A stretch of 64,000 nt of DNA from Longimonas halophila (GTDB lineage Bacteria > Bacteroidota > Rhodothermia > Rhodothermales > Salinibacteraceae), in the NCBI RefSeq assembly GCF_002554705.1, contig NZ_PDEP01000001.1, positions 310,001-374,000 of the forward strand. The letters are read 5' to 3'. Position numbers and translations under genes: made by a program. Of the stretch, positions 7,530-21,850 are shown one piece after another. Positions within the stretch are counted from its first letter, which is position 1, and each line of letters starts with the position of its first letter. The notes under the pieces were generated by a model. The model saw nothing but the letters and a program-made list of their open reading frames with translations. It was not told the DNA's origin and did no database searches.

Positions 7530-8621
7530 CCTTTAATCGCACCTTTGAGGCATTGAAATCCCCCTAAGACGACGTTCGCGGATAAAATCCTCCCCCCTTT
7601 AATCGCACCTTTGAGGCATTGAAATTCGGATCGTTTCGGGTCCCATCCCAGCCGTGCGCGGCCTTTAATCGCACCTTTGAGGCATTGAAATGAAACGAGA
7701 AGTCGTCCCCGATCGCGTCGTTGCGTGGCCTTTAATCGCACCTTTGAGGCATTGAAATCTCGGCACCTCAATGAGCGCCAGCCCTTCCTCGCCACCTTTA
7801 ATCGCACCTTTGAGGCATTGAAATTTGAGCGGCTTGTCTTGTCGGCCGCCGGGGCCACCTCCTTTAATCGCACCTTTGAGGCATTGAAATTTGAGCTGCA
7901 CTGCGCCTTGCGTGGGGCCCGGATTGGCCTTTAATCGCACCTTTGAGGCATTGAAATGAAACGCATCGGGCAAGGCCGCCTCGTTGACTACAGACCTTTA
8001 ATCGCACCTTTGAGGCATTGAAATTGTTTGCTGTATGTGTGGATGCGATCAGAGGATACATCCTTTAATCGCACCTTTGAGGCATTGAAATCAAAAGAGG
8101 ATGCGGAGGTCAACGACCACGCCAAAGCCTTTAATCGCACCTTTGAGGCATTGAAATCGCCTCCACCACCCACCCATGCAGGTCCACCAGGCGCCTTTAA
8201 TCGCACCTTTGAGGCATTGAAATCGCCTCCACCACCCACCCATGCAGGTCCACCAGGCGCCTTTAATCGCACCTTTGAGGCATTGAAATCCTCCGCTGTC
8301 TTCGTCGCCGAGCAGGTCCGCGATCTGCCTTTAATCGCACCTTTGAGGCATTGAAATTCGCCATCGAGGTCGAGGAAGCCCCCGCCCCCGGCATCCTTTA
8401 ATCGCACCTTTGAGGCATTGAAATTGCACGGTGCATGTGATCTGCTTCGTGTCGCTCATCTTTTAATCGTACCTTTGAGGTATTGAAATTGTCCTGCTTC
8501 ATCGCCCACGCACGGAGGTTGATGTCTTTTAATCGCACCTTCGAGGTATTGAAATTGGTGCGTGCGTACTTCAATGCGCTCGCCAATATCGCTTTTAATC
8601 GCACCTTTGAGGTATAGTAAC
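7530..8621 (+). CRISPR. CRISPR array 1, I-B-type repeats (17 repeats, 16 spacers)
   Basis: The 30-base repeat begins CCTTTAATCGCACC and ends GGCATTGAAAT, which matches type I-B repeats ending in ATTGAAA plus a pyrimidine. The period is about 66, so spacers are about 35-38 bases. The first 14 repeats are identical. The last three carry changes (for example GTACC and GGTATT), and the final one (8592-8621) loses its 3' end to TATAGTAAC. This fits decay at the end distal to the leader. The spacers at 8158-8193 and 8224-8259 are identical 36-mers, an internal duplication. Orientation is given by the leader at 7281-7529 and the decayed repeats at the right end. Confidence 0.98.
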
Positions 8622-8837
8622 GTCCCAGGGCACTGGGACGCCGTCATGGAGCTCTCTTCGCATGCAGACAAGGAGCATAAGGTTGAGATCGCGCTACTTT
8701 TGCATGGCAGATGCCGCTCCGCAAGGGCAACGCATTGCTCCGGGCGACGCAGAGCCCTGCGTCGTTACGGCAGGTTGGGGGGGCGCATCTGGGTCGCCCG
8801 CGGCTCCGCTCAGGACAGGCGCACCTTTGAGGCATAC
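8617..8837 (+). repeat. ~220 bp CRISPR-bounded repeat element, copy A
   Basis: The unit starts GTAACGTCCCAGGG, right after the core of the last array-1 repeat, and ends in GGCGCACCTTTGAGGCATA, which again contains the middle of the CRISPR repeat. Inside are two perfect hairpins: CGTCCCAG with CTGGGACG at the left end, and a GACGCAG/CTGCGTC stem in the right half. Related copies follow at once (B, C), inside the cas locus (D), and behind array 2 (E, F and partial G). No convincing coding capacity was seen on either strand. Confidence 0.75.
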
Positions 8838-9056
8838 GTAACGTCCCAGGGCACTGGGACGCCGTCATGGGGCTCTCTTCGCATGCAGAGACGGGGAGCA
8901 TGAGGTTGAGATCGCGCTGCTTTGCATGGCAGATGCCGCTCTGCATGGCAACGCATTGCTCTGGGCGACGCAGGCCCTGCGTCGTTACGGCTGGTTGGAG
9001 GGGTGCTTCTGGGTCGCCTGCGGCTTTGCTCGGGACAGGCGCACCGTTGAGGCATA
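8838..9056 (+). repeat. ~220 bp CRISPR-bounded repeat element, copy B
   Basis: This second tandem unit has the same start (GTAACGTCCCAGGG) 221 bases after copy A. It ends with GCACCGTTGAGGCATA, a version of the CRISPR repeat core with one change. The internal text is recognisably the same as copy A with many substitutions, so the copies have diverged since duplication. Confidence 0.75.
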
Positions 9057-9281
9057 GTACCGTCCCCAGGGCCCCGAGACGCCGTCGTAGATCCGCCTTC
9101 GCATGCAGACGGGAGCATGAGGTTGAGGTCGCGCTACTTTGCATGAGCAGATGCCAGACCGTATGGTAACGGATTGCTCCGGGCGACGCAGGCCCTGCGT
9201 CGTTACGGTCGGTTGGGGGCGCTTCTGGGGCGTCCGCGGCTCCGCTCGGGACAGGCGCACTGTTGGGGTATTGAGATGCGG
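9057..9281 (+). repeat. ~220 bp CRISPR-bounded repeat element, copy C
   Basis: The third tandem unit starts 219 bases after copy B with GTACCGTCCCCAGGG. It ends with a more decayed boundary (GCACTGTTGGGGTATTGAG). It is the most diverged copy here, consistent with decay increasing away from the array. The DNA beyond it to 9341 holds no gene that I can see. Confidence 0.7.
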
Positions 9282-9341
9282 ACATCTCGCCGACACGGCC
9301 CCCCATCCGTCAGCGCTTGGACGCGCAGCCCCCGGAGACCG

Positions 9342-9369
9342 TTAACGTCGACCGGCCGGTCGACGTTAA
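9342..9369. promoter_or_regulatory. 28-bp perfect palindrome upstream of the WYL regulator
   Basis: The half-site TTAACGTCGACCGG is followed by its exact reverse complement. It ends 62 bases before the WYL-regulator ATG, where an operator would be expected. The same pattern, with two symmetric base changes per half, recurs inside the RAYT coding sequence (12403-12430). The right arm runs directly into TTAATCGCACC, the first part of the CRISPR repeat. An operator for the WYL protein and a REP-type transposase site are both possible. Confidence 0.6.
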
Positions 9370-9431
9370 TCGCACCAAGGCAACGTGGCACCATCTCTAA
9401 AACACGCTATCTAACTCTACATCCACACGCC

Positions 9432-10421
9432 ATGCCCACAAGCAAACCCGCTCACGAGCAGTTGGAGCACCTGCTGCGCACCGGCCATGTGCTCACCACC
9501 CGCGAGGCCGCCGACCGGCTCAACGTGTCCACGCGCACCATTTTGCGTGCGGCTAAGAAACTGGAAGGTAGGGGACTTCCGGTCGAGACCACACACGTTG
9601 GCAACATGAACCAGTACGCGCTGTCCGAGGCCGAGCGCTACCCCGAGAGCGGAGATCGCTACACTGAAAACCAGCTCCTGGCGCTGATCGTGGCCATTGA
9701 AGCCGGGCGCTCACTGCTGCGTCCCACGCCGCTGACCGCCCCCTTAAAGGCGGTCTACGACGACCTGATGACCCGCATTCCCGAGCAGAACGTGTTTACG
9801 CTGGACCCCAACGAGGAATCGTCGCGCTGGTACTTCCAAGAAGCGCGATCCGTCCCCATCGACCCCGACATCTTTGAGACAGTGCGTCAGGCCATCCACG
9901 AGCAGCGCACCATCAGCATCGACTACATGAACGCCAGCCGGCAAACCCGAAACAAAGGGCGCGTGATTGATCCACTCGTCATCGGCACCCAGAACGGCGC
10001 CTGGCTCTGCGTGGCCTACTGCCACATGCGCGAGGACATCCGCGACTTCAACCTGGTGGATATCCAGTCCATTGAGGTGCACGACACCCATTTTGAGCCG
10101 CCCGAAGACTTCGATCCGATCCTGCATTTCGACAAGCGCTTTGGCGCCACCACGGGCGAAAGTTATCTCGTACGCATCCGCGTTGCGCCGGAGGTGGCGG
10201 GCTACTTTCGGCGCAAAAAATACCACCCCACGCAGCAGGTCGATCATGAAGGCAGCGACGGCCACCTCATCGTCTCGTACGATGTGGAGGGGCTCAAAGA
10301 TATGCATTCGTGGATTCGCTCGTGGGGCCCCGCGGTCACGGTGTTGGAGCCCGAGAAGCTCGCCCAGCAGATTCAGGAGGATGCAGAGGCCGTGGCCGCC
10401 CAGTATGCGTCGCAAGCGTGA
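9432..10421 (+). CDS. WYL-domain transcriptional regulator of the CRISPR island
   Basis: This 329-residue protein starts at ATG 9432 (MPTSKPAHEQ). Residues about 10-60 form a DeoR-type winged helix (TREAADRLNVSTRTILRAAKKLEG). The middle holds a WYL sensor domain (RTISIDYMNASRQTRNKGRVIDPLVI, with AWLCVAYCHMREDIRDFNL). The C-terminal WCX part reaches IRSWGPAVTVLEPEKLAQQI. WYL proteins bind nucleic acids or nucleotides and often control CRISPR-Cas, BREX and other defence loci. It lies between array 1 with its elements and the cas operon, with a palindrome 62 bases upstream. Control of the cas genes is inferred from position. Confidence 0.88.
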   Translation: MPTSKPAHEQLEHLLRTGHVLTTREAADRLNVSTRTILRAAKKLEGRGLPVETTHVGNMNQYALSEAERYPESGDRYTENQLLALIVAIEAGRSLLRPTPLTAPLKAVYDDLMTRIPEQNVFTLDPNEESSRWYFQEARSVPIDPDIFETVRQAIHEQRTISIDYMNASRQTRNKGRVIDPLVIGTQNGAWLCVAYCHMREDIRDFNLVDIQSIEVHDTHFEPPEDFDPILHFDKRFGATTGESYLVRIRVAPEVAGYFRRKKYHPTQQVDHEGSDGHLIVSYDVEGLKDMHSWIRSWGPAVTVLEPEKLAQQIQEDAEAVAAQYASQA

Positions 10422-10535: not shown

Positions 10536-10868
10536 ATGCCAAATCCGTCGTCGTGTCGCTCCGCCCACGCCATCCACCTGCGCCTGCGCACCGCTGTAGG
10601 GGCCCCCGCTGTGCCATGGATTGAGCCGCCGCTCTGCCTGCGCCGCCCCGACGGCACCCTCGAACTGCTGGGCCAGAGTGCAGCCCTGCTTCCCACCGTC
10701 CGCTTCGTGCTCAGCTACGGACGCTATGCCACGCTGCTTGGCTCGCCCGTCCTGCAGCGTGCGGTTGTGGAGGAGGCGCGGCGTATACTAAAACAGCATG
10801 ATCAGGGCACAAACAAAAATGCCCGCTGCAACTGCTGCGGGCATGCGATACCTATGAGGTCCGATTAA
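10536..10868 (+). pseudogene. Remnant of a second WYL protein (C-terminal WCX part)
   Basis: The frame from ATG 10536 encodes IHLRLRTAVGAPAVPWIEPP and LLPTVRFVLSYGRYATLLGS, followed by LQRAVVEEARRILKQHDQ. This resembles the C-terminal WCX domain of WYL regulators, without the HTH or WYL core. The last ~20 codons (KNARCNCCGHAIPMRSD) run through a transcription terminator and part of a degenerate CRISPR repeat on the other strand, so that tail is probably not real protein. It is best read as a fragment of a lost paralogue of the intact regulator just upstream. A short functional WCX-only protein cannot be excluded. Confidence 0.5.
10811..10844 (-). terminator. Intrinsic terminator of the mini-CRISPR RNA
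   Basis: On the minus strand, ATGCCCGC (10844-10837) pairs with GCGGGCAT (10826-10819) and is followed by TTTTTGTTT. This is a textbook intrinsic terminator for leftward transcription, placed directly after the second degenerate repeat. Confidence 0.75.
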
Positions 10869-10930
10869 GCGTCAGGATTCCTATTGGCCTGCAGAACCAT
10901 ATTTCAATGCCTTGAGCGGTCCGATTAATA
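10819..10930 (-). ncRNA. CreR/CreA-like mini-CRISPR guide RNA
   Basis: On the minus strand, a degenerate repeat (10930-10901) keeps TTAATCG, ACC and the exact 3' end GGCATTGAAAT of the array repeat. It therefore retains a full I-B crRNA 5' handle (ATTGAAAT). It is followed by a 29-nt spacer (10900-10872) and a second, more decayed repeat (10871-10842, about 19 of 30 bases like the array repeat). A terminator follows at once. The 18 spacer bases nearest the handle match the site at 11064-11081 with one mismatch, at position 12. Type I effectors leave every sixth guide base unpaired, so the pairing is functionally near-perfect but short. Known guides of this kind (CreR, CreA) direct Cascade to repress a cas or toxin promoter without cleavage. 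The structure is seen; the regulatory role is inferred. Confidence 0.75.
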
Positions 10931-11063
10931 GATCCCGACGTTACAACGTAGGTCTAAAACTGTCATACTGTTCCCCGTTGGACTTTTCTTTCAGACTCGA
11001 TCTTGTGTTCTTCGGAACACCTTTAAGCTTCGCCGGTGGCTGAAACCAGGATATTCCAAAAGC
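10931..11063. promoter_or_regulatory. Divergent promoter region of guide RNA and cas operon
   Basis: This AT-richer stretch lies between the leftward mini-CRISPR RNA and the rightward cas operon, so both promoters should be in it. A small inverted repeat (ACGTT-AC-AACGT, 10938-10949) lies close to the expected start of the guide RNA. I do not assign -33/-7 boxes, because no match to the Bacteroidota consensus is convincing. Confidence 0.45.
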
Positions 11064-11081
11064 ATTGGCATGCAGAACCAT
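11064..11081. promoter_or_regulatory. Predicted target site of the mini-CRISPR guide
   Basis: ATTGGCATGCAGAACCAT here equals the plus-strand sequence at 10883-10900 except for one base (A here, C there). The mismatch is guide position 12. Read on the minus strand, the protospacer is preceded by CCG where the PAM should be, not by the repeat end. It ends 7 bases before the ATG of the first gene of the operon, a place where a bound Cascade would block transcription or its initiation. Binding is inferred. Confidence 0.7.
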
Positions 11082-11088
11082 CGGTGTT

Positions 11089-11370
11089 ATGAGAGAAAAT
11101 AATCGCTATCGTAGAATCGTGAGCCTTATCATGACCGGAGAAGGAGAAAGGCTACGTGCGCTTGCATCCGATCAAAGCGGCTGTGCTATCAGCCACGTTC
11201 TTTGCCATTTAAAACGGAGAAGCCATGTCGCATTTGTGGACTCTGGGGATGTAAAGAATGTCGTGCTCACGGACAAAGGCTGGACGTACTGGAAGGCCAG
11301 TTCTGATACTGACCTACCCCCTAATCAACATACGCTCACAAAAAAAACATCCCTATGCGTCTCAATCTGA
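11089..11370 (+). CDS. Small winged-helix-like protein, first gene of cas operon
   Basis: The 93-residue frame from ATG 11089 (MRENNRYRRIVSLIMTGEGE) has a helix pattern followed by FVDSGDVKNVVLTDKGWTYW, which looks like the wing and last helix of a small winged-helix protein. I do not recognise a family. It overlaps the start of cas6 by 16 bases, which suggests translational coupling. The predicted guide-RNA target lies 7 bases upstream of its start. Codon use differs from its neighbours: AGA is the second codon, and further AGA and AGG codons occur early, in an otherwise GC-rich genome. It may be a regulator of the operon, or a translated part of a CreT-like toxin element. Both are speculative. 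Confidence 0.55.
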   Translation: MRENNRYRRIVSLIMTGEGERLRALASDQSGCAISHVLCHLKRRSHVAFVDSGDVKNVVLTDKGWTYWKASSDTDLPPNQHTLTKKTSLCVSI

Positions 11371-12023
11371 CACTCACCCCGTCCACCGAACCTGTCCCTT
11401 ACGACCATCTGCACCAGCTCACCGGGGCGCTCCACAAGTGGATCGGCCCCGACAACAACCTGCACGACGGCCTGAGTCTCTACAGCTTCGGCTGGCTCAA
11501 GCGGAGCACGGGCACGAAAGACGGCCTGCTCTTTCCAAAAGGAGCCGACTGGCGCGTCAGTTTCTACCAGTCCGAAGCCGCCAAAGCCTGCATGGATGGG
11601 ATGCTCACCGATCCGACGGTGGCCTATGGGATGCGCGTAGCCGAAGCCAAAGAGCAGCGCGCGCCGTCGTTTTCCGCACCCCACACGTTTAAGGTGGACA
11701 GTCCCGTGCTGGCGCGCCAGACCCGCGAGGACGGCAGCCGCGCCCACCTCACGTGGGACGACCCGGACGCCGACGCCGCCCTCACGCGCACGCTGCGCAC
11801 CAAGCTCTCCGCTTCGGGTATCGACGTGGACCCGAGCGCGGTGCACGTGCAGTTCGACCGCAGCTACGCGCATCCAAAGACGAAGCTCGTGCGCATCAAA
11901 CAGACCCAGCACCGCGCCAGCATGTGTCCGGTCATCATCGACGGCCCGCCCGAGGCCCTTCGGTTCGCCTGGCTCGTGGGCATCGGCGACCTGACGGGGA
12001 GCGGGTTTGGGGCGCTGCAATGA
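11355..12023 (+). CDS. cas6: Cas6 pre-crRNA endoribonuclease
   Basis: This 222-residue Cas6 cleaves the repeat in array transcripts, leaving an 8-nt 5' handle, and usually stays in the effector complex. The N-terminus shows the ferredoxin-like start MRLNLTLTPSTE and YDHLHQLTGALHKWIG, where the catalytic histidine usually lies. The C-terminus has the glycine-rich loop GIGDLTGSGFGALQ that defines the family. The start is ATG 11355, inside the end of the small upstream gene. A RAYT gene follows 25 bases later. The only other repeat-processing candidates are absent, so it should also process the degenerate mini-CRISPR at 10819-10930. Confidence 0.93.
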   Translation: MRLNLTLTPSTEPVPYDHLHQLTGALHKWIGPDNNLHDGLSLYSFGWLKRSTGTKDGLLFPKGADWRVSFYQSEAAKACMDGMLTDPTVAYGMRVAEAKEQRAPSFSAPHTFKVDSPVLARQTREDGSRAHLTWDDPDADAALTRTLRTKLSASGIDVDPSAVHVQFDRSYAHPKTKLVRIKQTQHRASMCPVIIDGPPEALRFAWLVGIGDLTGSGFGALQ

Positions 12024-12048
12024 AACACACAGTATAACCTCAGGGACC

Positions 12049-12657
12049 ATGCCGCCCGATTACGACCGATACCAAACGCATCACCGGTCGCGCCGCCATC
12101 CCGACTGGGATTACACGCAGCCCGCCGCGTACTTCGTGACGATCTGCGCCCATGACCGGATGCATCTGTTCGGGCGTGTTGTCGACGGCCAGATGCGCTG
12201 CAACGCCTTCGGGCGCGTGGCCGCCGAAGAGTGGCACCGCTCCGAAGCAATCCGCGACGAGGTCCACCTGGACGCCTTCGTGGTGATGCCCAACCACATC
12301 CACGGCATTGTGGTGATCGCCCCGCCGGATGCCGACGCACCGACCGACCCTCAGGGGTATGCGGTGCCCCCCGTAGACGCCCCGACGCCCCCCGATCCAG
12401 ACGTAACGTCGTCCGGCCGGACGACGTTACCCTGCGGCCCGCAACGCCGCTCCCTCGGGTCATGCATCGCCGGGTACAAGGCCGCCGTCACCCGCCGCAT
12501 CAACCAGATGCGCGAGACGCCGGGCGCGCCGGTCTGGCAGCGCAACTACCACGACCACATCATCCGCACCGCAGGCGCCTGGCACCGCATCCGCCGGTAC
12601 ATCCAGACCAACCCCACACGGTGGGACGACGACACGTTTTATTCAACAGACACATAA
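12049..12657 (+). CDS. REP-associated tyrosine transposase (RAYT), Y1/HUH family
   Basis: This 202-residue member of the IS200/IS605-like RAYT family is thought to nick and mobilise REP hairpins in single-stranded DNA. The metal-binding HUH motif is in VMPNHIHGIVVI and the catalytic tyrosine in RIRRYIQTNP. The start HRSRRHPDWDYTQPAAYFVT and RNYHDHIIR are also typical. Translation begins at ATG 12049, and its stop is 4 bases before cas5, so it is embedded in the cas operon and must be co-transcribed. The variable linker between the HUH part and the C-terminal helices (about residues 85-145) contains a 28-bp perfect DNA palindrome (12403-12430). It is either a passenger that landed in the operon or a domesticated gene. 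It looks intact. Confidence 0.88.
   Translation: MPPDYDRYQTHHRSRRHPDWDYTQPAAYFVTICAHDRMHLFGRVVDGQMRCNAFGRVAAEEWHRSEAIRDEVHLDAFVVMPNHIHGIVVIAPPDADAPTDPQGYAVPPVDAPTPPDPDVTSSGRTTLPCGPQRRSLGSCIAGYKAAVTRRINQMRETPGAPVWQRNYHDHIIRTAGAWHRIRRYIQTNPTRWDDDTFYSTDT
12403..12430. repeat. 28-bp perfect palindrome inside the RAYT gene
   Basis: The half-site GTAACGTCGTCCGG is followed by its exact reverse complement. It encodes part of VTSSGRTTLPCG in the disordered linker. It shares the pattern TAACGTCG-n-CCGG with the palindrome at 9342-9369. GTAACGTC also begins the ~220 bp elements. It is a plausible recognition site of the RAYT itself. Confidence 0.65.
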
Positions 12658-12661
12658 ACAG

Positions 12662-13240
12662 ATGGATAACCAGATGCACATTGTCACCTACACCGGTCCA
12701 TTTGGATTCATCAAACCATGGACGGCTGTTCGCGATGAGCAGACGTACAGCCAGCAGTTCCTCACGCCGAGCATCGTAGAAGGCATGCGTCAGAAGCTGG
12801 AGGTAAGCGCCATTCTGCGCCATTGTCTCACACACAAGGGATTCAGCATCCAGCAGGAAACCACACAATCGCGTGGCTACAAGCAGAAGACGGTTAAGAA
12901 GTACAATACCGTCGAGTACCAGCGGGATACATCGATTATTGAGCGGGGCGTCATGCTTTCGCCTCGTCTCCATCTTGCATTCCCAACAGTGGAGGATGCC
13001 CAGAAAGCACACAGCGAGCATCTCTGTCTGTGCCGAAATGAGGATGTGGTGTACCCGTCGGGTGCGATTCAAGCGCTATCAGAAGATCAATTTGATGCGC
13101 TCACTGGGTTTGAGTTGCTGTTTGAGGACAGCGATGATGCCTTTCTTGTCGGCTACAACCGCTTTGAAGATGGGGCTCCTATGTACGGACGGCTCAGTGT
13201 GACGGGCAATCCAGTCGAGCAGTCGCCCGTGGCGGCGTGA
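12662..13240 (+). CDS. cas5: Cas5-like effector subunit (divergent)
   Basis: The protein has 192 residues (188 from an in-frame ATG at 12674, MHIVTYTGP). Its start, TYTGPFGFIKPWTAVRDEQT followed by YSQQFLTPSIVEGM, fits the Cas5 pattern: a strand, GP, aromatic/basic residues, then a proline-containing turn before a helix. The middle part VMLSPRLHLAFPTVEDAQKA can be the second strand-helix unit. Cas5 caps the crRNA 5' handle in type I complexes. The assignment rests on this pattern, on its size, on its place between cas6 and cas3, and on the lack of another cas5 candidate. Similarity is weak, so another cas accessory role is possible. Confidence 0.62.
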   Translation: MDNQMHIVTYTGPFGFIKPWTAVRDEQTYSQQFLTPSIVEGMRQKLEVSAILRHCLTHKGFSIQQETTQSRGYKQKTVKKYNTVEYQRDTSIIERGVMLSPRLHLAFPTVEDAQKAHSEHLCLCRNEDVVYPSGAIQALSEDQFDALTGFELLFEDSDDAFLVGYNRFEDGAPMYGRLSVTGNPVEQSPVAA

Positions 13241-13289
13241 CATTATCCAGTTCATCCCCTATCTCAAACACCTGAAATTAGCTGCTATC

Positions 13290-15443
13290 ATGACGCTACT
13301 TGCAAAAAGCGAAGACCAGGGTGGCCTCACGATTAAGGAGCACACACAGCATGTTGTCACGGCTGTCGTGCATGCAGCAGAGCAGTTGGGCATGGACGTA
13401 GACCAGGCCCGCCGGGCAGCCGTGTTACACGACCTGGGTAAAGGCCATCCGTTTTTTCAGCAGATGGTTAGGAATGAGCTATCCGAAGAAGACTGGATTC
13501 GGGAAGAGCCACACCGTCACGAAATCTCATCGCTTCTCTTCTTGCCGTTGCGTCCGAAGCATGAGTGGCCTGCGCTTATCGACTTTGTGGCCGCTCACCA
13601 CAAATCTATCAAGAAAGACCGAAGCAGTCGCGGTCTAATCGACTTATGCCGCGAGTTTGGCTCGGATGCTGTCTTTGCACGCCACAACGAGGAGTGGTCC
13701 ACCTGGGGGCCTGCAGCTATGCAGGTGGCGGCCTCGTTTGGGTGGGAGGTGCAGCCCATCTCCGAGGCAGAGCGCCGCACGGCCTTCGATGCAGCATTGC
13801 ACCACTGCCGCCAAAATCCTGACGGCTGGTCGCGATTTCGGGGGCTCTTGATGACTGCCGACCACTTCGCATCTAATTACACCCACGCGACCCAAGATAA
13901 AGCAGAACAGCTCTATCAGGCGCCCAACCTGGAGGGCTACCGGCATGGCCATGCGCCGTACACCGCTTCCGATCTGTATCCGCTCTCACAGATCGACACG
14001 GACGACCCGCGTCCGCATACGCTTGTCGTTGCTCCTACCGGTGCAGGAAAGACCAACTTTCTGCTTGCACGCTGCCAGGGACGTGTGTTCTACACGCTCC
14101 CCTTTCAGGCCTCAATCAACGCCATGTATGAGCGTATCCACACCGATCTCCATGAGCACTTCGACGTGCCTGCCGATGTGCGGCGTCTGCACGCTACCTC
14201 ACGTATCGAAATGGACAACGAGTGGACTGAGGATGCCGACTTGCAGCGTCACCCTGGAGCCAGCGTCAAGGTCATGACGCCGTATCAACTGGCCTCGATT
14301 GTGTTTGGCACAGCAGGATACGAGGCGATGGCGCTGGACCTGCGGGGCAATGACGTAATTCTCGACGAGGTGCACACCTACGACGGCGTAGCCCGCTCGA
14401 TGGTGCTGCAAATTGTTCGCATGCTTGTTGAACTGGGATGCCGGGTACATATCGGAACAGCAACAATCCCAACCGCTCTGGCTGATGCTTTAGTGGAGGT
14501 GTTGGGCGGCGCTGAACAGGTTGACGAAGTGCGGCTGCCACACAAAACCCTTGACACGTTCAACCGGCATCGCATCCACAAAATACAGGGTCAAGATGCC
14601 ATGTGGGATACGTTGCATCAGTTGCTTTCTGATGGGCAACGCGTTCTCATGGTGAGCAACCAGGTGCAGACAGCGCAAGACCGATACAAGCAGGTGGAAG
14701 CGATGGATGTGCCGTCGATGCTCATTCACAGCCGGTACAAACGGAAAGAACGGGCCGAACTGGAGTCGCAGATTAAGCGCTTCGAAGAAATGGGTGGCCC
14801 GTGTGTCGTGTCAGCCACGCAGGTTGTGGAAGTGAGTCTGGACATCTCGTTCGATGCGATGATTACCGACGCTGCCCCGCTGGATGCGCTCGTACAACGC
14901 TTCGGACGCGTCAACCGTCGGCGCTCTGCCGAGACGATTGGCACCTACAAGCCCATTTACATCGTGGCTCCGCCCAATGATGACAATGCTGTGCTGCCCT
15001 ACGACGCAGACGTTGTACGGCAGAGCTTTAGCGTGCTTCCTGATGGAAATGTACTTCCAGAAGCTGAAGTGCAAACGCTCATCGATGCGGTGTACCCTGA
15101 AATCGAGGTCCCTGAGCTTGCGACGCACTTTATCTGGAACGGCGATTCGTACCGCATCCAGAAACTTCAACACCGTCCGAAGTCTGTGCTGCTGGATGCG
15201 CTAAACATCAATTCAGCCGTGTGCATCCTCCGGTCTGAAGTCGAGACCTACGCCAATGCACGCTGGGCTGAGCGTCAGCTTATGCACATTCCCGTGCCTG
15301 TAAGTTTCAAGCGATTCGACTGGCCTACGCTTAAATTTGGAAGTTACCCGATGTGCGCGCTAGATTCCTGGTACAACCCGGGGGGGCGCCCGGTTGGCCT
15401 GACGACGAGTGCTGAAGACAATGCCACGTCTAACTTTATCTAA
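13290..15443 (+). CDS. cas3: Cas3 nuclease-helicase
   Basis: Cas3 is recruited by target-bound Cascade and unwinds and degrades the DNA. At 717 residues it has both parts in the usual order. The N-terminal HD nuclease has VLHDLGKGHPFF (His47-Asp48) and DFVAAHHKS. The superfamily 2 helicase has PTGAGKTNF (near 251), LDEVHTYD (near 359), GTATIP and QRFGRVNRR. All key motifs are intact, so it should be active. The start is ATG 13290, 49 bases after cas5. Its place in the middle of the operon, between cas5-like and cas8-like genes, is unusual for I-B loci, where cas3 normally follows cas5. Confidence 0.95.
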   Translation: MTLLAKSEDQGGLTIKEHTQHVVTAVVHAAEQLGMDVDQARRAAVLHDLGKGHPFFQQMVRNELSEEDWIREEPHRHEISSLLFLPLRPKHEWPALIDFVAAHHKSIKKDRSSRGLIDLCREFGSDAVFARHNEEWSTWGPAAMQVAASFGWEVQPISEAERRTAFDAALHHCRQNPDGWSRFRGLLMTADHFASNYTHATQDKAEQLYQAPNLEGYRHGHAPYTASDLYPLSQIDTDDPRPHTLVVAPTGAGKTNFLLARCQGRVFYTLPFQASINAMYERIHTDLHEHFDVPADVRRLHATSRIEMDNEWTEDADLQRHPGASVKVMTPYQLASIVFGTAGYEAMALDLRGNDVILDEVHTYDGVARSMVLQIVRMLVELGCRVHIGTATIPTALADALVEVLGGAEQVDEVRLPHKTLDTFNRHRIHKIQGQDAMWDTLHQLLSDGQRVLMVSNQVQTAQDRYKQVEAMDVPSMLIHSRYKRKERAELESQIKRFEEMGGPCVVSATQVVEVSLDISFDAMITDAAPLDALVQRFGRVNRRRSAETIGTYKPIYIVAPPNDDNAVLPYDADVVRQSFSVLPDGNVLPEAEVQTLIDAVYPEIEVPELATHFIWNGDSYRIQKLQHRPKSVLLDALNINSAVCILRSEVETYANARWAERQLMHIPVPVSFKRFDWPTLKFGSYPMCALDSWYNPGGRPVGLTTSAEDNATSNFI

Positions 15444-15489
15444 ATCAACTGCTTGCGAGTCAACTACCTTACTCTAACAGCTTCTTTTT

Positions 15490-16788
15490 ATGTACACCGC
15501 CTACATCGGACGCCGCATCATTGACCTGTATAACGAGCACCGCCGCGACGGGCCGGCGCTCTCGCCGCACGACTTCTTCGACGAAGTAGTCTTTCCCGTA
15601 GCATTTGACGACGAACGCTACCTGTTCTGGCCAAATAACTCGCCCTTTGCCCAGCCTACGTATTCTGGCAAGCGTGATGATCCCGACGTTCGTCAACGGG
15701 CCCTTGCCGATACCTATGAGAAGGTTGCAGCTATTGACGAGCCCCTTGGACATCTATTTATGGGCGGAATGGCCAGCGGTGTGCTGGAAACGACGTCTGG
15801 ACAAGTGAGCACGGTGGGCGCGTCGGCAAACCCCGATGAAGCATACTGCTCGTGGGTGGGTGCTATGGCGGGCATCGGGCTGAAAGGCGGGCTTTCGATG
15901 CTCGTTGATCACGACGACGTATTGCTGGCACTGCTTGACGGGTGGTTTGCCTATCGCTCGTATCTGGACCAAACGCCTGGCCTGAAGGGCAACCAGGTGG
16001 AGACCTGGAACGGACACTGGATCTGTCACCGATTTGGGTACGACTATCGCGAAAACGATCCGTTGCGTGATCTTAAGCCCCGCACAACCAAGTCAACGGG
16101 AATCAAGACGCAGAAGTGGGCCAGCGTGCTTTTTAACTTAGCGCGGGCGTTGCCTGGTGAAACGCCAACGGTGTATCTCTACTCGCTTGGTCAGATGAAT
16201 ACCACAGTGGGATTTCGGCAGCTTCATCTTCCAGATGTACAACGTCTTGCACAGCTTCACGAAAAGCTGTTTGGCGACGTGGAGGGCGTCAGTTCGCGGA
16301 GTCTGGCCGACATGTACGATACGCAGTACAGCATCTACGCGGCGTGTCAGCAAGGCACCATTGGCATGCGGGCACTGCAACCCGACAAACTGCGCGACTA
16401 CATGCCCGGTGGCAGGAAAGACAAGATGCCCACGCCTACACGCAGCCCTAACAAGCAAAATCGCTATCGTATCTTTCAAACATGGATTGTTGCCATGCTC
16501 AACAATGAAGAACTGATCGACCTTACAGAATCCACAGCCCAGGCGCTCAAGGCGCACGCAGAATCGGGGGAGGATACATACACCACTGAAAAGCGTCGCG
16601 CTGAGGAAGTCCTAAAAGCAGGGCACCGACGCGAGTTTCTCGATGCTTTGACAGCGGTGCTAAAGGAAGACGACTCGCATGCCGAGCATTTCAACAAGCT
16701 GGCAGATACCATTGTCAAAATGCCCGCTTCCGACTTTCCTCTGTTTGCAACACTGCTTCGGCTCAAGTACACCGTGTTCAGCAAGTAG
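15490..16788 (+). CDS. Probable Cas8-type large subunit (divergent, 432 residues)
   Basis: It starts MYTAYIGRRIIDLYNEHRRD; a segment near residues 100-160 has LGHLFMGGMASGVLETTSGQ and SWVGAMAGIGLKGG. The C-terminal third is strongly helical and charged (ESTAQALKAHAESGEDTYTT through AEHFNKLADTIVKMP), which could be the Cas11-like helical bundle fused to many Cas8 proteins. I do not recognise a described Cas8 subfamily. The call comes from context: cas6, cas5, cas3 and cas7 are accounted for, and a type I complex needs a large subunit for PAM recognition. It is shorter than many Cas8b proteins and shows no clear zinc-finger cysteines. It lies 46 bases after cas3 and 54 bases before cas7. Confidence 0.55.
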   Translation: MYTAYIGRRIIDLYNEHRRDGPALSPHDFFDEVVFPVAFDDERYLFWPNNSPFAQPTYSGKRDDPDVRQRALADTYEKVAAIDEPLGHLFMGGMASGVLETTSGQVSTVGASANPDEAYCSWVGAMAGIGLKGGLSMLVDHDDVLLALLDGWFAYRSYLDQTPGLKGNQVETWNGHWICHRFGYDYRENDPLRDLKPRTTKSTGIKTQKWASVLFNLARALPGETPTVYLYSLGQMNTTVGFRQLHLPDVQRLAQLHEKLFGDVEGVSSRSLADMYDTQYSIYAACQQGTIGMRALQPDKLRDYMPGGRKDKMPTPTRSPNKQNRYRIFQTWIVAMLNNEELIDLTESTAQALKAHAESGEDTYTTEKRRAEEVLKAGHRREFLDALTAVLKEDDSHAEHFNKLADTIVKMPASDFPLFATLLRLKYTVFSK

Positions 16789-16842
16789 TTAAGCATGGTT
16801 TTACACTCATCGATACACGCACACGCAAATAAACAGACACCC

Positions 16843-17901
16843 ATGGCTACCAGCAAATACCTTTTCATTCGCGGACTGCGCGAGGCAACGCACACCGTAT
16901 TCTCTGTACAAGATGGCCAGAAAACCTATTACGATCCCGAGTTCGGACGCAAGGTTGCGTATTCCAGTGGCCAGCAGGTGAAGCGCTCGCTGCTCGATGC
17001 GGTATCGGAAGCACTGGATGAGCGCCGGGCGCCGATCACCTTCAACCGTAAGATCACTAAAGACAACGCGATTGAGGACAAAGAACCCTGGTCCCCATGC
17101 GATCCACAGTACGCCGACCAGCTTTTAGGGGGCTGGATGCGAGCAAAATCGAATGGCGGTACCGTAAAGCGTCGCAGCCCACTTTCGATCTCTGCGATGC
17201 GGCCTCTGCACCCACTGCTTGCCGGGTTGGCTCGCGAGTCGGCGTCGTTCGATAGGAGCGATGATCCGGAGCATCATCCCGTACGTGTCGTGAATGCAAA
17301 GGGGGAGGAGATGTCAGAGGAAGACATTCAGAACTTCCTGACATCGAATGATCGCACCCTGCCGCGTCGCAACTGGATTCCCGAAGACCAGGTCGGGCCG
17401 CGTGCACATGGGCTGTACGTGTTCGACGTGGCCATTGACCTTACGCGGCTGTTTACCGTCTCGACCAACCAGCACGAACCCGAACTCAGCAAGGAGAAAA
17501 TCGAGGAGCTCAAAGAAGCAGGTTGGACGCTTTCCGAAAGCGGAGAAGACTTAATTTGTCCTGAAGAGCGGCGAACCGAGCTGACGGAAGCCCTGGCTGC
17601 TGGACTGATTAACTGGCGCGTCACCAGTAACCAGAGCCGTACGTACAGCCCACAGGCTACGCTGGCCCTCGCGATGAGCGACGATGCCAATCGCGTCACT
17701 GGATCCATTCGGGCTGACCTTGCCGAAGAGGAGGACAACAAGGCCGTGCCCGTCATTGAGACCGTGGATGGCGTTCGTACCTACGTAATGCCCGCGTGCA
17801 AAAGCCACGTTGCAGGAGTCACAGCGTCGTTTGATGCGCTCGACGCAGCGCAACGCGACATTGCTGCACACATCCAATCCTTCACGGCGGACCTTGGATA
17901 A
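16843..17901 (+). CDS. cas7: Cas7 backbone subunit (Cst2/DevR-like)
   Basis: This 352-residue protein forms the helical backbone that holds the crRNA in the Cascade complex. It has the Cas7 start MATSKYLFIRGLREATHTVF, PLSISAMRPLHPLLAG in the first half, and GLYVFDVAIDLTRLFTVSTN, typical of the second core strand of Cst2/DevR-type Cas7. A late segment, TYSPQATLALAMSDDANRVT, precedes a helical C-terminus. ATG 16843 is preferred to the TTG 48 bases upstream, because the family match begins there. It is the last gene of the effector block. A degenerate CRISPR repeat begins 3 bases after its stop. Confidence 0.82.
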   Translation: MATSKYLFIRGLREATHTVFSVQDGQKTYYDPEFGRKVAYSSGQQVKRSLLDAVSEALDERRAPITFNRKITKDNAIEDKEPWSPCDPQYADQLLGGWMRAKSNGGTVKRRSPLSISAMRPLHPLLAGLARESASFDRSDDPEHHPVRVVNAKGEEMSEEDIQNFLTSNDRTLPRRNWIPEDQVGPRAHGLYVFDVAIDLTRLFTVSTNQHEPELSKEKIEELKEAGWTLSESGEDLICPEERRTELTEALAAGLINWRVTSNQSRTYSPQATLALAMSDDANRVTGSIRADLAEEEDNKAVPVIETVDGVRTYVMPACKSHVAGVTASFDALDAAQRDIAAHIQSFTADLG

Positions 17902-17904
17902 ACA

Positions 17905-18149
17905 CCCTTACTCGCACCTTTGAGGTATGGTAACGTCCCAGGGCACTGGGACGCTGTTGTCGGTCCTCCTTCGCATACGGACGGGGAGCATGAGGTTGGG
18001 ATCGCACTGCTTTGCACGGCAGATGCCGCTACGCATGGCAACGCATTGCTCCGGGCGACGCAGGGCCCTGCGTCGTTACGGCAGGTTGGAGGGCCGCCTC
18101 TGACTCGCCCTCGGCTCCGCTCGGGACAGGCGCACCTTCAAGGCGTACT
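17905..18149 (+). repeat. Degenerate CRISPR repeat plus ~220 bp element, copy D
   Basis: Bases 17905-17934 match 24 of the 30 bases of the array repeat. They are followed by the same unit as copies A-C (GTAACGTCCCAGGGCACTGG from 17930) and end in GGCGCACCTTCAAGGCGTA. This fills most of the 337-base gap between cas7 and cas4. It could be the trailer of a lost array, meaning cas4-cas1-cas2 once joined the locus through array DNA, or an independent insertion. The rest of the gap (18150-18238) shows nothing else. Confidence 0.72.
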
Positions 18150-18238
18150 ACACAAAGTTCCCGACACCAAACGTCGCGCAATCCAGCGGGGGCTATTATC
18201 ATGATGGGGCGTTGTCCGTGCCCTACATCGTGTGTGTC

Positions 18239-18790
18239 ATGAACGCTCCGTCGCAGCTCCGCATTGGTGGGATGCTCATTGGCTACTACTGCATCTGCCC
18301 GCGCAAGGCGTGGCTGTCGATGCGGGGGCTGTGGATGGAGCAGGAGAGCCAGGCCGTGGCGCTGGGGCGGCTGGTGGATCAGTCGAGCTACCCGCGCAAC
18401 AAGAAGGCGCTGATGCTGCATGCCGAAGCGCCCTGCGGCACGCCGCTTGTGGGCAAGATCGACTGGGCGCAGCTCGACCACGGTGTGCTCCACGAAACCA
18501 AGAAAGGCCGCTCGTGCGAGGACGCCCACATCTGGCAGCTTCGCTTCTACCTGTGGCTCTTGCGCCTGAACGACGTCACCCGGGCCGACGGCGCGCCGTT
18601 TCGGGGTGAACTCAACTACCCGAAGCTACGCCGCACCGAATCGGTCGAACTGGAGCCCGCACACGAAACCCGTCTGGCCGACATGGTGGCCGCCCTGCGT
18701 CGCCTGGCAGGTCAAGATACCCCGCCGTCCCGCATCGATACGCGGTCGTTCTGCCGTCGCTGTGCCTACGAGGAACTGTGCTACGGGTAA
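18239..18790 (+). CDS. cas4: Cas4 exonuclease, adaptation
   Basis: This 183-residue RecB-like nuclease with an iron-sulfur cluster selects PAM-containing prespacers and trims them with Cas1-Cas2. Visible are the first cluster cysteine in YYCICPRKAWL, the nuclease core GKIDWAQL and HETKKGRSCEDAHIWQLRFY, and the C-terminal cysteines CRRCAYEELCYG. ATG 18239 (MNAPSQLRIGG) is preferred to the TTG 27 bases upstream, because the family begins there. A MITE-like element begins directly after its stop, and cas1 comes after that. Adaptation genes are thus separated from the effector genes by element D. Confidence 0.93.
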   Translation: MNAPSQLRIGGMLIGYYCICPRKAWLSMRGLWMEQESQAVALGRLVDQSSYPRNKKALMLHAEAPCGTPLVGKIDWAQLDHGVLHETKKGRSCEDAHIWQLRFYLWLLRLNDVTRADGAPFRGELNYPKLRRTESVELEPAHETRLADMVAALRRLAGQDTPPSRIDTRSFCRRCAYEELCYG

Positions 18791-18952
18791 GCGCCTGTTT
18801 TGATTTCTTATTTTGGGCTGCGAGCGGCTCCACTGGGCTGCAACGAGCCCCCGATCTCGGCCCGTAGCCCCGGCTACGAACCTCCATCGTGGTTCTCGTT
18901 TCGCTCCAGCGGCGCTCGCTCTCGCCTTCAAACCGAAACCTAAACAGGCTCT
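18791..18952. repeat. MITE-like element with terminal inverted repeats, copy 1
   Basis: This ~162-base unit begins gcGCCTGTTTTGATTTC and ends AAACAGGCTC, so its ends are inverted repeats. A nearly identical copy lies at 36412-36572. There is no coding capacity. It abuts the cas4 stop codon and fills the gap before cas1. Size and ends suggest a non-autonomous mobile element; no matching transposase is visible in the window. Confidence 0.75.
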
Positions 18953-19014
18953 AAGCGCCAACGCGTCGCGCTGCATCTGCCTGCTCGTATCCTATCCTGA
19001 GCTTTCGCATCCCC

Positions 19015-20094
19015 ATGAAACGCCCGTACTACCTCTTCTCGAACGGACGCCTGGCGCGTCATCAGAACTCGCTTCGGCTGGAGCGTGCCACCGACGCCCG
19101 CACGCCGGGACGGTTGCCCGACGACACCGGCACACCCAGTGGAGAGATGACCGGGCAGAAGGTGCCGTTCCCCGTTGAAAGCGTTGAGTCGCTCTACTGC
19201 TTTGGGGAGATCGACATCAACGCCAAGCTGATCACGTTTCTGGCGCAGCACCATGTGCCCGCCTTCTTTTTCGACTATTTTGGCAACTACACCGCCAGCC
19301 TCTACCCGCGCGAGCACCTGCTGTCGGGACGGCTGAAGGTGGCACAGGTGACGCATCACACCGATCCCGACGACCGTCTTGCGCTGGCACGGGCGTTCGT
19401 GCGGGCTGGACTGCACAACATCCGGCGCGTGCTCAAATACTACGCCGCGCGCCTGAACGGGGCCTCCGACGAGGTGGCCGATGCCGAGTCTGACATTGAC
19501 GATCTGCAACAGCAGGCCCGCACCGCTGCCGACATCCCAACGCTCATGGGATGCGAGGGGCAGGCGCGCAATACGTATTACAGCACCTGGCCCACGCTGC
19601 TGGGCACGGCGGGCGAGGCATTTCCGTATGGGCAGCGCTCGCGGCAGCCGCCCTCCAACGAACTCAACGCGCTCATCAGCTTCGGCAACAGCCTCTGTTA
19701 CACCGCATGCCTGCGCCAGCTCTACCACACGGCACTCGACCCCACCGTGAGCTACCTGCACGAGCCCGGCGACCGCCGCTTCTCGCTCGCGCTGGATCTG
19801 GCCGAGGTGTTCAAGCCGGTGCTGGTAGACCGGGCGATCTTTCGGCTCATCAAAACGCGCCAGATTCAGCCAAAGCACTTCGAAGACCGCCTCGGCGGCA
19901 CCTACCTGAGCGAGTCCGGGCGCAAGATTTTCGTGGAGCACTGGGATGACCGCCTGCGCCAGACCATCAAGCACCGCAGCCTGGGCCGCAATGTGAGCTA
20001 CGGACGCCTCATCCGCCTCGATGCCTACGGGCTGGTGCGGCACCTCTGCGATCCGGTCGCCGACTCCTACGAAGGCTTCACAATGGATTGGTAA
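19015..20094 (+). CDS. cas1: Cas1 integrase, adaptation
   Basis: This 359-residue Cas1 inserts new spacers at the leader end of arrays, in complex with Cas2. The three metal ligands are visible: Glu in LMGCEGQARNTYYSTW, His in VSYLHEPGDRRFSL and Asp in LALDLAEVFKP. The N-terminal beta domain begins MKRPYYLFSNGRLARHQNSL, and the I-B-style motif FGEIDINAKLITFLAQHHVP follows. The start is ATG 19015. cas2 follows 46 bases later, and array 2 starts directly behind cas2, the usual place for the most active array. Confidence 0.96.
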   Translation: MKRPYYLFSNGRLARHQNSLRLERATDARTPGRLPDDTGTPSGEMTGQKVPFPVESVESLYCFGEIDINAKLITFLAQHHVPAFFFDYFGNYTASLYPREHLLSGRLKVAQVTHHTDPDDRLALARAFVRAGLHNIRRVLKYYAARLNGASDEVADAESDIDDLQQQARTAADIPTLMGCEGQARNTYYSTWPTLLGTAGEAFPYGQRSRQPPSNELNALISFGNSLCYTACLRQLYHTALDPTVSYLHEPGDRRFSLALDLAEVFKPVLVDRAIFRLIKTRQIQPKHFEDRLGGTYLSESGRKIFVEHWDDRLRQTIKHRSLGRNVSYGRLIRLDAYGLVRHLCDPVADSYEGFTMDW

Positions 20095-20113
20095 ATCGAC
20101 GGGAGCATCCTAA

Positions 20114-20140
20114 TCCAAAATCCCAAATCTAAAATCCAAA
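20114..20140 (+). repeat. Short tandem AAAATCC-type repeat before cas2
   Basis: Four units resembling the heptamer AAAATCC (with variants CAAATCT and AAAATCC) directly precede the cas2 ATG. No Shine-Dalgarno is seen, as is common in Bacteroidota. The same repeat type occurs inside the icmF and pglX coding sequences. Confidence 0.6.
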
Positions 20141-20404
20141 ATGTACATCATCGCCGTGTACGACGTGAACGTAGACCGCGTCGCCAAGATGCTGAAGCTG
20201 TTTCGGCGCTACCTAACCTGGGTGCAGAACTCGGTGTTCGAGGGCGAGCTCACGAAGGCGCAGTACGCCCAACTTAAGCAGGAGGCCGAGGCGCTCATGG
20301 ACCCCGCCGAAGATTCAGTCATCGTCTGGCACGTACGGGCCGAGTCGTACTTCGAGCGCGAAACGCTGGGCGAGGAGCCGGGCGAAACGGGACGCTTTCT
20401 GTGA
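20141..20404 (+). CDS. cas2: Cas2, adaptation complex subunit
   Basis: This 87-residue Cas2 forms the dimer that bridges two Cas1 dimers and sets spacer length. MYIIAVYDVNVDRVAKMLKL is the typical first strand with its conserved Asp; RRYLTWVQNSVFEGELTKAQ is the signature of I-B-type Cas2. The start codon follows a short AAAATCC-type tandem repeat. The stop at 20402-20404 is only 4 bases before leader 2. Confidence 0.96.
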   Translation: MYIIAVYDVNVDRVAKMLKLFRRYLTWVQNSVFEGELTKAQYAQLKQEAEALMDPAEDSVIVWHVRAESYFERETLGEEPGETGRFL

Positions 20405-20656: not shown

Positions 20657-21220
20657 CCTTTAATCGCACCTTTGAGGCATTGAAATTATCCCTCTGGGGC
20701 CTCCGGCGCATCAAAGCGCAACCCTTTAATCGCACCTTTGAGGCATTGAAATCATCGACCGTCAGGCGCGTTTCGAGGGCGTTGTTGACCTTTAATCGCA
20801 CCTTTGAGGCATTGAAATAGCCGCCTGAAGACGACGAAGCCGACAGCTTCAACGACCTTTAATCGCACCTTTGAGGCATTGAAATCAGGTGGTCGATGCG
20901 ATGATCTGCGCTTGGTCGTGTACCTTTAATCGCACCTTTGAGGCATTGAAATGATACTACGCCAAGCCTTCCAGCGAGCCGAATCCGCCGCCTTTAATCG
21001 CACCTTTGAGGCATTGAAATCCGGTACCGTGACCGTTTGGCGGACGGGCTCAGTGCCCCTTTAATCGCACCTTTGAGGCATTGAAATCCGGATCGCCCCT
21101 TCCCAGGCCGTGCCGGAGAGATCGCCTTTAATCGCACCTTTGAGGCATTGAAATCTGTCTCCAGATCTATGGTTAGCAATGATCTGGCAACCTTTAATCG
21201 CACCTTTGAGGCATAGTAAC
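20657..21220 (+). CRISPR. CRISPR array 2 (9 repeats, 8 spacers)
   Basis: It has the same 30-base repeat as array 1 (CCTTTAATCGCACC to GGCATTGAAAT), with a period of about 67 bases. Eight repeats are perfect. The ninth (21191-21220) keeps the first 23 bases and then reads TAGTAAC, where element E begins, exactly as at the end of array 1. No spacer is shared with array 1 on inspection. It lies directly behind cas2 and leader 2. Confidence 0.98.
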
Positions 21221-21434
21221 GTCCCAGGGCACTGGGACGCCGTTGGGGGGCCGCCTTCGCATGCGTGACGGGATCATGAGGGTGAGATCGCGCTCCTTCG
21301 CATGGCAGGCCGCTCCGCACAGCAACGCATTGCTCCGGGCGACGCAGAGCCCTGCGTCGTTACGGCAGGTTGGGAGGGCGCGCTCTTTGGAGGGGGCTCG
21401 GCTCCGCTCGGGACAGGCGCACCGTTAAGGCATA
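21216..21434 (+). repeat. ~220 bp CRISPR-bounded repeat element, copy E
   Basis: The unit starts GTAACGTCCCAGGGCACTGG, fused to the last array-2 repeat, and ends GCACCGTTAAGGCATA. Its period to the next copy is 219 bases, as behind array 1. The same hairpins are present. Its place shows the arrangement array end plus element is shared by both arrays. Confidence 0.75.
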
Positions 21435-21650
21435 GTAACGTCCCAGGGTACTGGGACGCCGTCATGGGGCTCTCTTCGCATGCAGACGGGGAGCATGAGG
21501 TTGGGGTCGCGCTACTTTGCATGGTAGATGCCGCTCGGCATGGCAACGTATCGCTCTCCGCGACGCAGGCCCTGCGTCGTTACAGTAGGTTGGAGGGACG
21601 CATCTCGGTCAGCCTTGGCATCGCTCGGGACGGGTGCACCGTTGGTATAC
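21435..21650 (+). repeat. ~220 bp CRISPR-bounded repeat element, copy F
   Basis: It starts GTAACGTCCCAGGGTACTGG, follows copy E directly, and ends in a decayed boundary GCACCGTTGGTATAC. The internal sequence is recognisably the same family. Confidence 0.72.
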
Positions 21651-21850
21651 GTACCATCCCAGCGCGGTGGGGCGCTGTTGCAGCATGTCGTGTCCTAATC
21701 AACGATAGTCGGGGCGGAGCCCCTAACCGACTTGCGTCGCACGGCGGAGCCATGCGACGAGTGGTGGAAGTACCTTTTATCGCACCTGAGGTATACGTAA
21801 CGTTCCAGCGCGATGGGGCGCTGTTGCGGATGCCTGCTCATACGATCTAT
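21651..21850 (+). repeat. Decayed element copies G and H with a degenerate CRISPR repeat
   Basis: GTACCATCCCAGCGCGG begins a shortened unit of 146 bases whose interior was replaced by a GGCGGAGCC-type hairpin repeat (21711-21760). It ends at TTTTATCGCACCTGAGGTAT, another degenerate CRISPR repeat. A further start, GTAACGTTCCAGCGCG, follows at 21797 and fades out. The DNA from 21221 to the end of murA at 21888 thus holds only such repeats. Confidence 0.6.

Follow-up and report, generated by a model that had tools for sequence, protein, structure and literature searches.

The window, by which we mean the whole stretch of 64,000 nucleotides analyzed here, carries a type I-B cas operon on its plus strand, with a complete effector identified by profile (cas6b, cas5b, cas8b, cas7b, and cas3). 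One CRISPR array lies on either side of these genes and two further arrays are present elsewhere in the genome; the array repeat reads CCTTTAATCGCACCTTTGAGGCATTGAAAT. A gene for a WYL-domain regulator precedes the operon and is kept in all five relatives compared, at 37–41% identity. In longer regions from two clear family relatives (L009 and L010), cas5, cas3, cas8, and cas7 are 65–74% identical to those of the window. Between the WYL gene and cas6b lies a gap that contains a small repeat-derived element on the minus strand and, at some distance from it, a short match to the spacer of this element. The features discussed below are as follows.

7530..8621, plus: CRISPR array 1, source of the reference repeat
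9174..10421, plus: gene for a WYL-domain regulator that family relatives also have near cas6
10811..10844, minus: intrinsic-terminator-like hairpin with a T-run
10843..10871, minus: psiR2, second and more degenerate repeat, weak on sequence alone
10872..10900, minus: psiS, spacer-like guide of 29 nt
10901..10931, minus: psiR1, first degenerate CRISPR repeat (read directly, aligned with the array repeat, compared with shuffles)
10908-10901, minus: handle ATTGAAAT, the exact array handle, within psiR1
10938..10966, minus: predicted promoter-like site for the guide, ATGACA-17-TAACGT (P 0.08)
11064..11081, minus: target, matching guide positions 1–18 except 12
11065-11093, plus: weaker predicted promoter-like site, overlapping the target
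11082..11084, minus: CCG flank at the PAM position (CCA in three further genomes, G298, G466, and G049)
11089..11117, plus: best predicted promoter-like site of the gap, ATGAGA-17-TAGAAT (P 0.03), starting just past the PAM side of the target
11089..11370, plus: orphan 93-codon frame overlapping the cas6 start, probably not coding
11355..12023, plus: cas6b, first cas gene of the operon (profile search)
12662..20404, plus: cas5b, cas3, cas8b, cas7b, cas4, cas1, and cas2, the rest of the type I-B operon
20657..21220, plus: CRISPR array 2

A guide element and its match upstream of cas6b

The initial annotation, made from the letters of the DNA, had described two degenerate minus-strand repeats around a 29-nt spacer followed by a terminator. 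This anatomy can be read directly, with psiR2 being weak when taken alone. The first repeat, psiR1, reads CTATTAATCGGACCGCTCAAGGCATTGAAAT and has one extra base when aligned with the array repeat; its alignment score of 36 exceeds 26, the highest value among 150 shuffled versions of the surrounding 800 bp, and the exact handle that had been noted in it is intact. The second repeat, psiR2, scores 22; 14 of 150 shuffled regions contained a hit this good, compared with 1 of 1850 when a single site is considered. Its position and the AATCGGACC core that it has in common with psiR1 support it. A guide gene outside the arrays with a repeat-derived handle, which is a feature of CreR, is present here, psiR2 being its weak part. 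The terminator hairpin has a predicted energy of −17.5 kcal/mol, which 7 of 200 shuffles reached, and is followed by TTTTTG; a terminator scan limited to loops of 3–8 did not report it. Neither psiR1 (131 of 200 shuffles as good) nor the 132-nt RNA (74 of 200) folds better than shuffled sequence, and an Rfam search gave no match.

Spacer and target are identical at 17 of 18 positions counted from the handle, with a single mismatch at position 12, whereas from position 19 on only 1 of 11 positions agrees. The match, including its abrupt end, is exactly as initially described, and it exceeds what shuffled or resampled sequence provides. If the 11 mismatches were spread evenly, a boundary at position 18 would have a probability of about 6e-6. 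The best anchored match in 2000 dinucleotide shuffles of the gap spanned 12 positions, compared with 18 in the real sequence, and when a CC flank was required, none of 4000 first-order Markov resamples equalled the match of the window. Within the window, the guide 18-mer occurs with up to three mismatches at these two sites only (chance mean 0.05), and the seed with a CCN flank occurs a single time in the 3.73-Mb assembly (completeness 92%). Scored in the same way over 464 kb, the best of 39 ordinary spacers taken as controls matched at 14 positions and the guide at 17. In CreA of Halobacterium hubeiense, ten of the first 12 positions proved necessary, and only at positions 6 and 12 did a single change do no harm (PMC8501985). 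The lone mismatch at position 12 is therefore compatible with a working guide.

The relation of the target to the operon is less direct than it had appeared. The target was said to lie 7 bases before the first ATG of the cas operon, and there is indeed an ATG on the plus strand at 11089; this ATG opens the orphan frame, which has no coding signal, and not the first cas gene. Searches with the 93-codon frame gave no homologue at E <= 0.01 and nothing related among phage or viral collections, and no Pfam or NCBIfam family, KilA-N included, passed its cut-off. Its codon signal is like that of intergenic DNA: a score at least this high is reached by 51% of 74 intergenic pieces, and one at least this low by 2.6% of 228 gene pieces. 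Its AlphaFold model is of unusably low confidence (pLDDT 46), a Foldseek search returned nothing at E <= 0.001, and a winged helix judged by eye was dropped. From these comparisons, the frame is probably non-coding, although it may be a recent or foreign gene, since a frame of this length arises in only 1.1% of 5000 Markov resamples. We take the first cas gene to be cas6 at 11355, 273 nt past the target. Because the supposed first gene is probably no gene, the link between the target and a cas promoter in the window depends on a promoter-like site that is itself weak (P about 0.03).

Promoter-like sites were scored with a sigma-70 matrix; a consensus built from tRNA genes was dropped, as only four tRNAs are present in 464 kb. 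From the target toward the guide, there is no supported promoter-like site (P 0.46). On these scores, the promoter evidence in the window leans, on a thin basis, toward a promoter directed at the cas genes. None of the 26 other family genomes contains a counterpart of 10790-11370; the best match in another genome had E 0.011 over 30 nt. The gap has a GC content of 47.5%; low GC was considered as a mark of a foreign insert and dropped, since about 15% of the 59 intergenic gaps of at least 200 nt lie below 50%, and composition is therefore no proof of recent arrival.

Modules upstream of cas6 in other genomes

The cas6 gene was sought in several overlapping genome sets: 27 genomes of the family (7 with a match), 114 of the order (22), 244 of the class of the window (36), 391 of the class of G049 (26), and 395 of the phylum (40). 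A cas6 scan of genome contigs gave one distant locus only. In total, 69 upstream regions including that of the window (105,672 bases) were scanned with one repeat model. Seven regions are cut by contig ends (L036, L115, L123, L160, L162, L164, and L178), and L139 and L140 are partial genes. The scan left out G011 (a distant cas6), G024 (a 28-residue fragment), the second locus of G836, and the partial G801 and G712.

A two-repeat mini-CRISPR outside an array was found in four of the 69 regions, namely the window, G298 (L098), G466 (L109), and G049 (L099). The initial annotation had suggested a search of related genomes for a repeat–spacer–repeat upstream of cas6, and this search produced three further genomes that have both the module and a target. 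The other 65 regions contain no such module, and these include four family relatives of the window. Some cas6 match is present in six of 26 family relatives, and the four clear ones (L003–L006) have no ectopic repeat upstream. The module is equally absent from G464, G467, and G470, which belong to the family of G298, and from the 447-nt region of G474, a congener of G049. Several other scan hits were rejected. By their spacing, L048, L173, L097, and L178 are stretches or tails of arrays; L164 has a lone remnant in a 139-nt region, and L045 a single chance-like hit. Handle-only matches of 10–15 positions (L039–L042, L046, L051, L052, and L104) have no preceding repeat and were not counted; they sit in hairpins or in AT-rich or ribosome-site-like sequence.

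Each of the four modules is accompanied by a target within its own gap, and in every case CC occupies the PAM position. In G298, the target ACCA/CATAAATTAAAATTTG faces the guide CATAATTTAAACTTTG, with mismatches at positions 6 and 12; in G049, ACCA/ATATATAATAAGTTTTT faces ATATAAAATAATTTTTT, again with mismatches at 6 and 12; and in G466, TCCA/ATAGATATAGGAATTA faces ATCGAGATAGGCAGTA, with mismatches at 3, 6, 12, and 14. Seed mismatches are accordingly confined to positions 6 or 12 in the window, G298, and G049, while G466 has an additional one at position 3. When CC was required, none of 4000 resamples equalled the match in any of these three genomes, and the targets of G298 and G049 had been found without a PAM condition. 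Ordinary spacers gave no independent PAM: neither the spacers of three arrays compared with phages nor three leader-proximal spacers compared with viral contigs produced a match. The modules themselves predict a CCN PAM for these type I-B systems.

All three additional loci have a cas5b relative after cas6, and in all three the predicted guide runs in line with the operon, whereas that of the window is divergent. G298 and G466 belong to one genus, and their Cas6 proteins are 88% identical. Their gaps share a promoter-like element before cas6, TTGACTTT...TATTTTG or TATGTTTG, presumably a Bacteroidota-type promoter. The target lies 22 nt upstream of the shared TTGACTTT element in G298 and 31 nt upstream in G466, with no gene between target and cas6. 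The targets of this pair stand in this way beside a promoter-like element in front of cas6; in the window, the target has the weak promoter-like site beside it. Both guide and target differ between the two congeners, and each guide fits its own target. The covariation that had been named initially as a test in relatives is observed here; guide and target covary in this one pair, of which G466 has the extra seed mismatch. G049 has a different order, with the target followed by a 62-aa ORF (L099 2201-2389), the guide, and cas6. The ORF has two clusters of homologues of equal length, at 95% and 69% identity. By its gene order, the G049 module is a hybrid layout, and a CrePA-like role is possible in this genome because the target precedes a conserved small ORF that is followed by the guide and then cas6. 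In the psiR1 of G466 (L109, ending at 1296 of the reverse strand), about 15 inserted nt separate the repeat halves, and the GGAATTGAAAT end is kept.

Candidate autorepression and alternative readings

The sequences show the layout of the element, a match to the target that is broken once, at a multiple of six, a flanking CC, and recurrence with covariation in other genomes. We consider it likely that the element of the window is a CreR-type guide, through which Cascade loaded with a mini-CRISPR crRNA would repress its own type I-B cas operon. Such autorepression had been proposed initially, and the reading gains support from a dedicated, seed-only, CC-flanked guide placed before a complete type I-B operon and from the recurrence of this arrangement. 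The minus-strand RNA would start near 10935 and end at the terminator, and Cas6b would cut psiR1 and probably psiR2, leaving an RNA that resembles a crRNA and has the ATTGAAAT handle. Cascade with this guide would recognize CCG and pair through positions 1–11 and 13–18, a pairing that would be too short for cutting by Cas3. Bound Cascade would then block the adjacent promoter for cas6 and the genes that follow, and repression would be lifted once Cascade is occupied by ordinary crRNAs or by an anti-CRISPR.

The same arrangement could instead be an addiction module related to CreTA or CrePA, in which Cascade and the guide would repress a small toxin, either an RNA or a short protein, encoded in the gap, and loss or inhibition of Cascade would free it. 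We regard this as unlikely, but it deserves to be taken seriously. In H. hubeiense, the target, creT, and a creA with two repeats follow one another directly before a cas operon (PMC8501985). Guide, target, and orphan frame of the window all fall in the stretch without a counterpart in 26 family genomes, and the conserved ORF behind the G049 target fits such a module. The orphan frame itself looks non-coding, however, and no supported promoter-like site leads from the target toward the guide. The CreTA toxin RNA is marked by a strong SD, rare codons after the start, a stem–loop, and a place behind the targeted promoter. Downstream of the target, we found no tandem rare codons adjacent to a start; a frame at 11131 has AGG-CTA as its codons 7–8. 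The targets of G298 and G466 stand before cas6 itself, with no intervening gene. A minus-strand mini-ORF at 11106-11132 (ATG ATA AGG) has two rare codons after its start, a CreT-like form, but lies past the target as seen from the guide.

Two readings without a regulatory role carry much less weight. The element might be an old array end with a self-targeting spacer taken from neighboring DNA, now drifting without function; in favor of this, both repeats have degenerated, and few relatives have the module. Drift would scatter the mismatches, whereas 10 of the 11 lie beyond position 18 (the even-spread probability given above), and in all four modules the match is confined to the seed side, where position 6 or 12 is mismatched, with covariation in the congeners, so that we consider a decayed leftover very improbable. 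It is harder still to credit an ordinary defensive mini-array aimed at a virus, to which the neighboring match would be secondary. The 18-mer, allowing any base at position 12, does occur in five viral contigs, but CC is missing from the PAM position in all five, and past the 18-mer they do not track the guide (18–21 of 29 positions identical); the sole CCN-flanked seed in the genome is the adjacent site.

Autorepression by a dedicated guide has parallels in other systems. Cas9 reportedly represses its own cas promoter with a long form of the tracrRNA as dedicated guide. That system is of type II, with a one-protein effector and no mini-CRISPR, whereas the window has a type I effector and a mini-CRISPR. 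Closer to the window is CreR, which, according to two reviews, represses cas promoters in I-B, I-E, and V-A systems (PMC12737573, PMC13131331). In the scheme given there and in a third source, guide-loaded Cascade holds down the cas operon and eases when crRNAs or anti-CRISPRs draw Cascade away (PMC12737573, PMC13131331, PMC12948488). CreR and the window share a crRNA-like guide from a mini-CRISPR, the lack of an evident toxin, partial complementarity upstream of the cas operon, and a type I-B effector (PMC12737573, PMC13131331, PMC12948488). Unlike CreR, the window comes from another phylum branch, its guide is divergent from the operon, and its target lies 273 nt before cas6 next to a promoter that is only predicted.

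The H. hubeiense CreTA with its two-repeat creA resembles the window in the order psiR1–psiS–psiR2, the diverged repeats, the kept 8-nt handle, the seed pairing with position 12 free, and the site upstream of the cas operon (PMC8501985). It differs in that the window has no recognizable CreT, a longer match (to position 18), and a CC flank instead of TTC (PMC8501985). CrePA likewise employs a guide resembling a crRNA, which shuts down the promoter of a neighboring protein gene (PMC12737573), as proposed for the guide of the window. CreP is typically a KilA-N protein, whereas the window has no KilA-N toxin and its frame no coding signal; a conserved small ORF behind the target is found in G049 only.

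The kind of guide is already known. In the literature searched, we found neither such guides described for this lineage nor the divergent layout nor a congener pair that covaries, which agrees with the initial annotation as to the lineage; the primary CreR survey lay outside this search and may list some of the genomes. The analysis yields four sequence-defined candidate autoregulatory guides, which make it possible to test in new hosts whether Cascade controls its own abundance. More tentatively, the self-regulating guides of type I-B systems in this phylum may have arisen repeatedly from stray repeats upstream of cas6 and been re-aimed by joint change of guide and target, which would give each lineage a private off-switch, coupled in G049 to a new small protein; we consider this scenario slightly less likely than not.

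Other repeat-related elements at the cas loci

Two family relatives (L004 and L005) have a half-repeat, TTCAATCACACCCTCTGGGACAA and TTTAAATCGCACCCTTTGGGACAA, respectively, on the cas6 strand, 15–40 nt before the cas6 ATG, which might be a binding site for Cas6 in its own mRNA. In the window, a gene resembling REP-associated tyrosine transposases (12007-12657; NCBIfam 64 bits, cut-off 80) follows directly 3′ of cas6, and a similar gene stands behind cas6 in three of four family relatives (L009, L010, and L012), as if it were a member of the operon. Finally, units of about 220 nt that combine a piece of the CRISPR repeat (GCACCTTTGAGGCAT) with a GTCCCAGGGCACTGGGAC palindrome occur at 8591-9300, 17889-18150, and 21190-21830, that is, after both arrays and again between cas7 and cas4; they are possibly REP-like elements grown on array ends.
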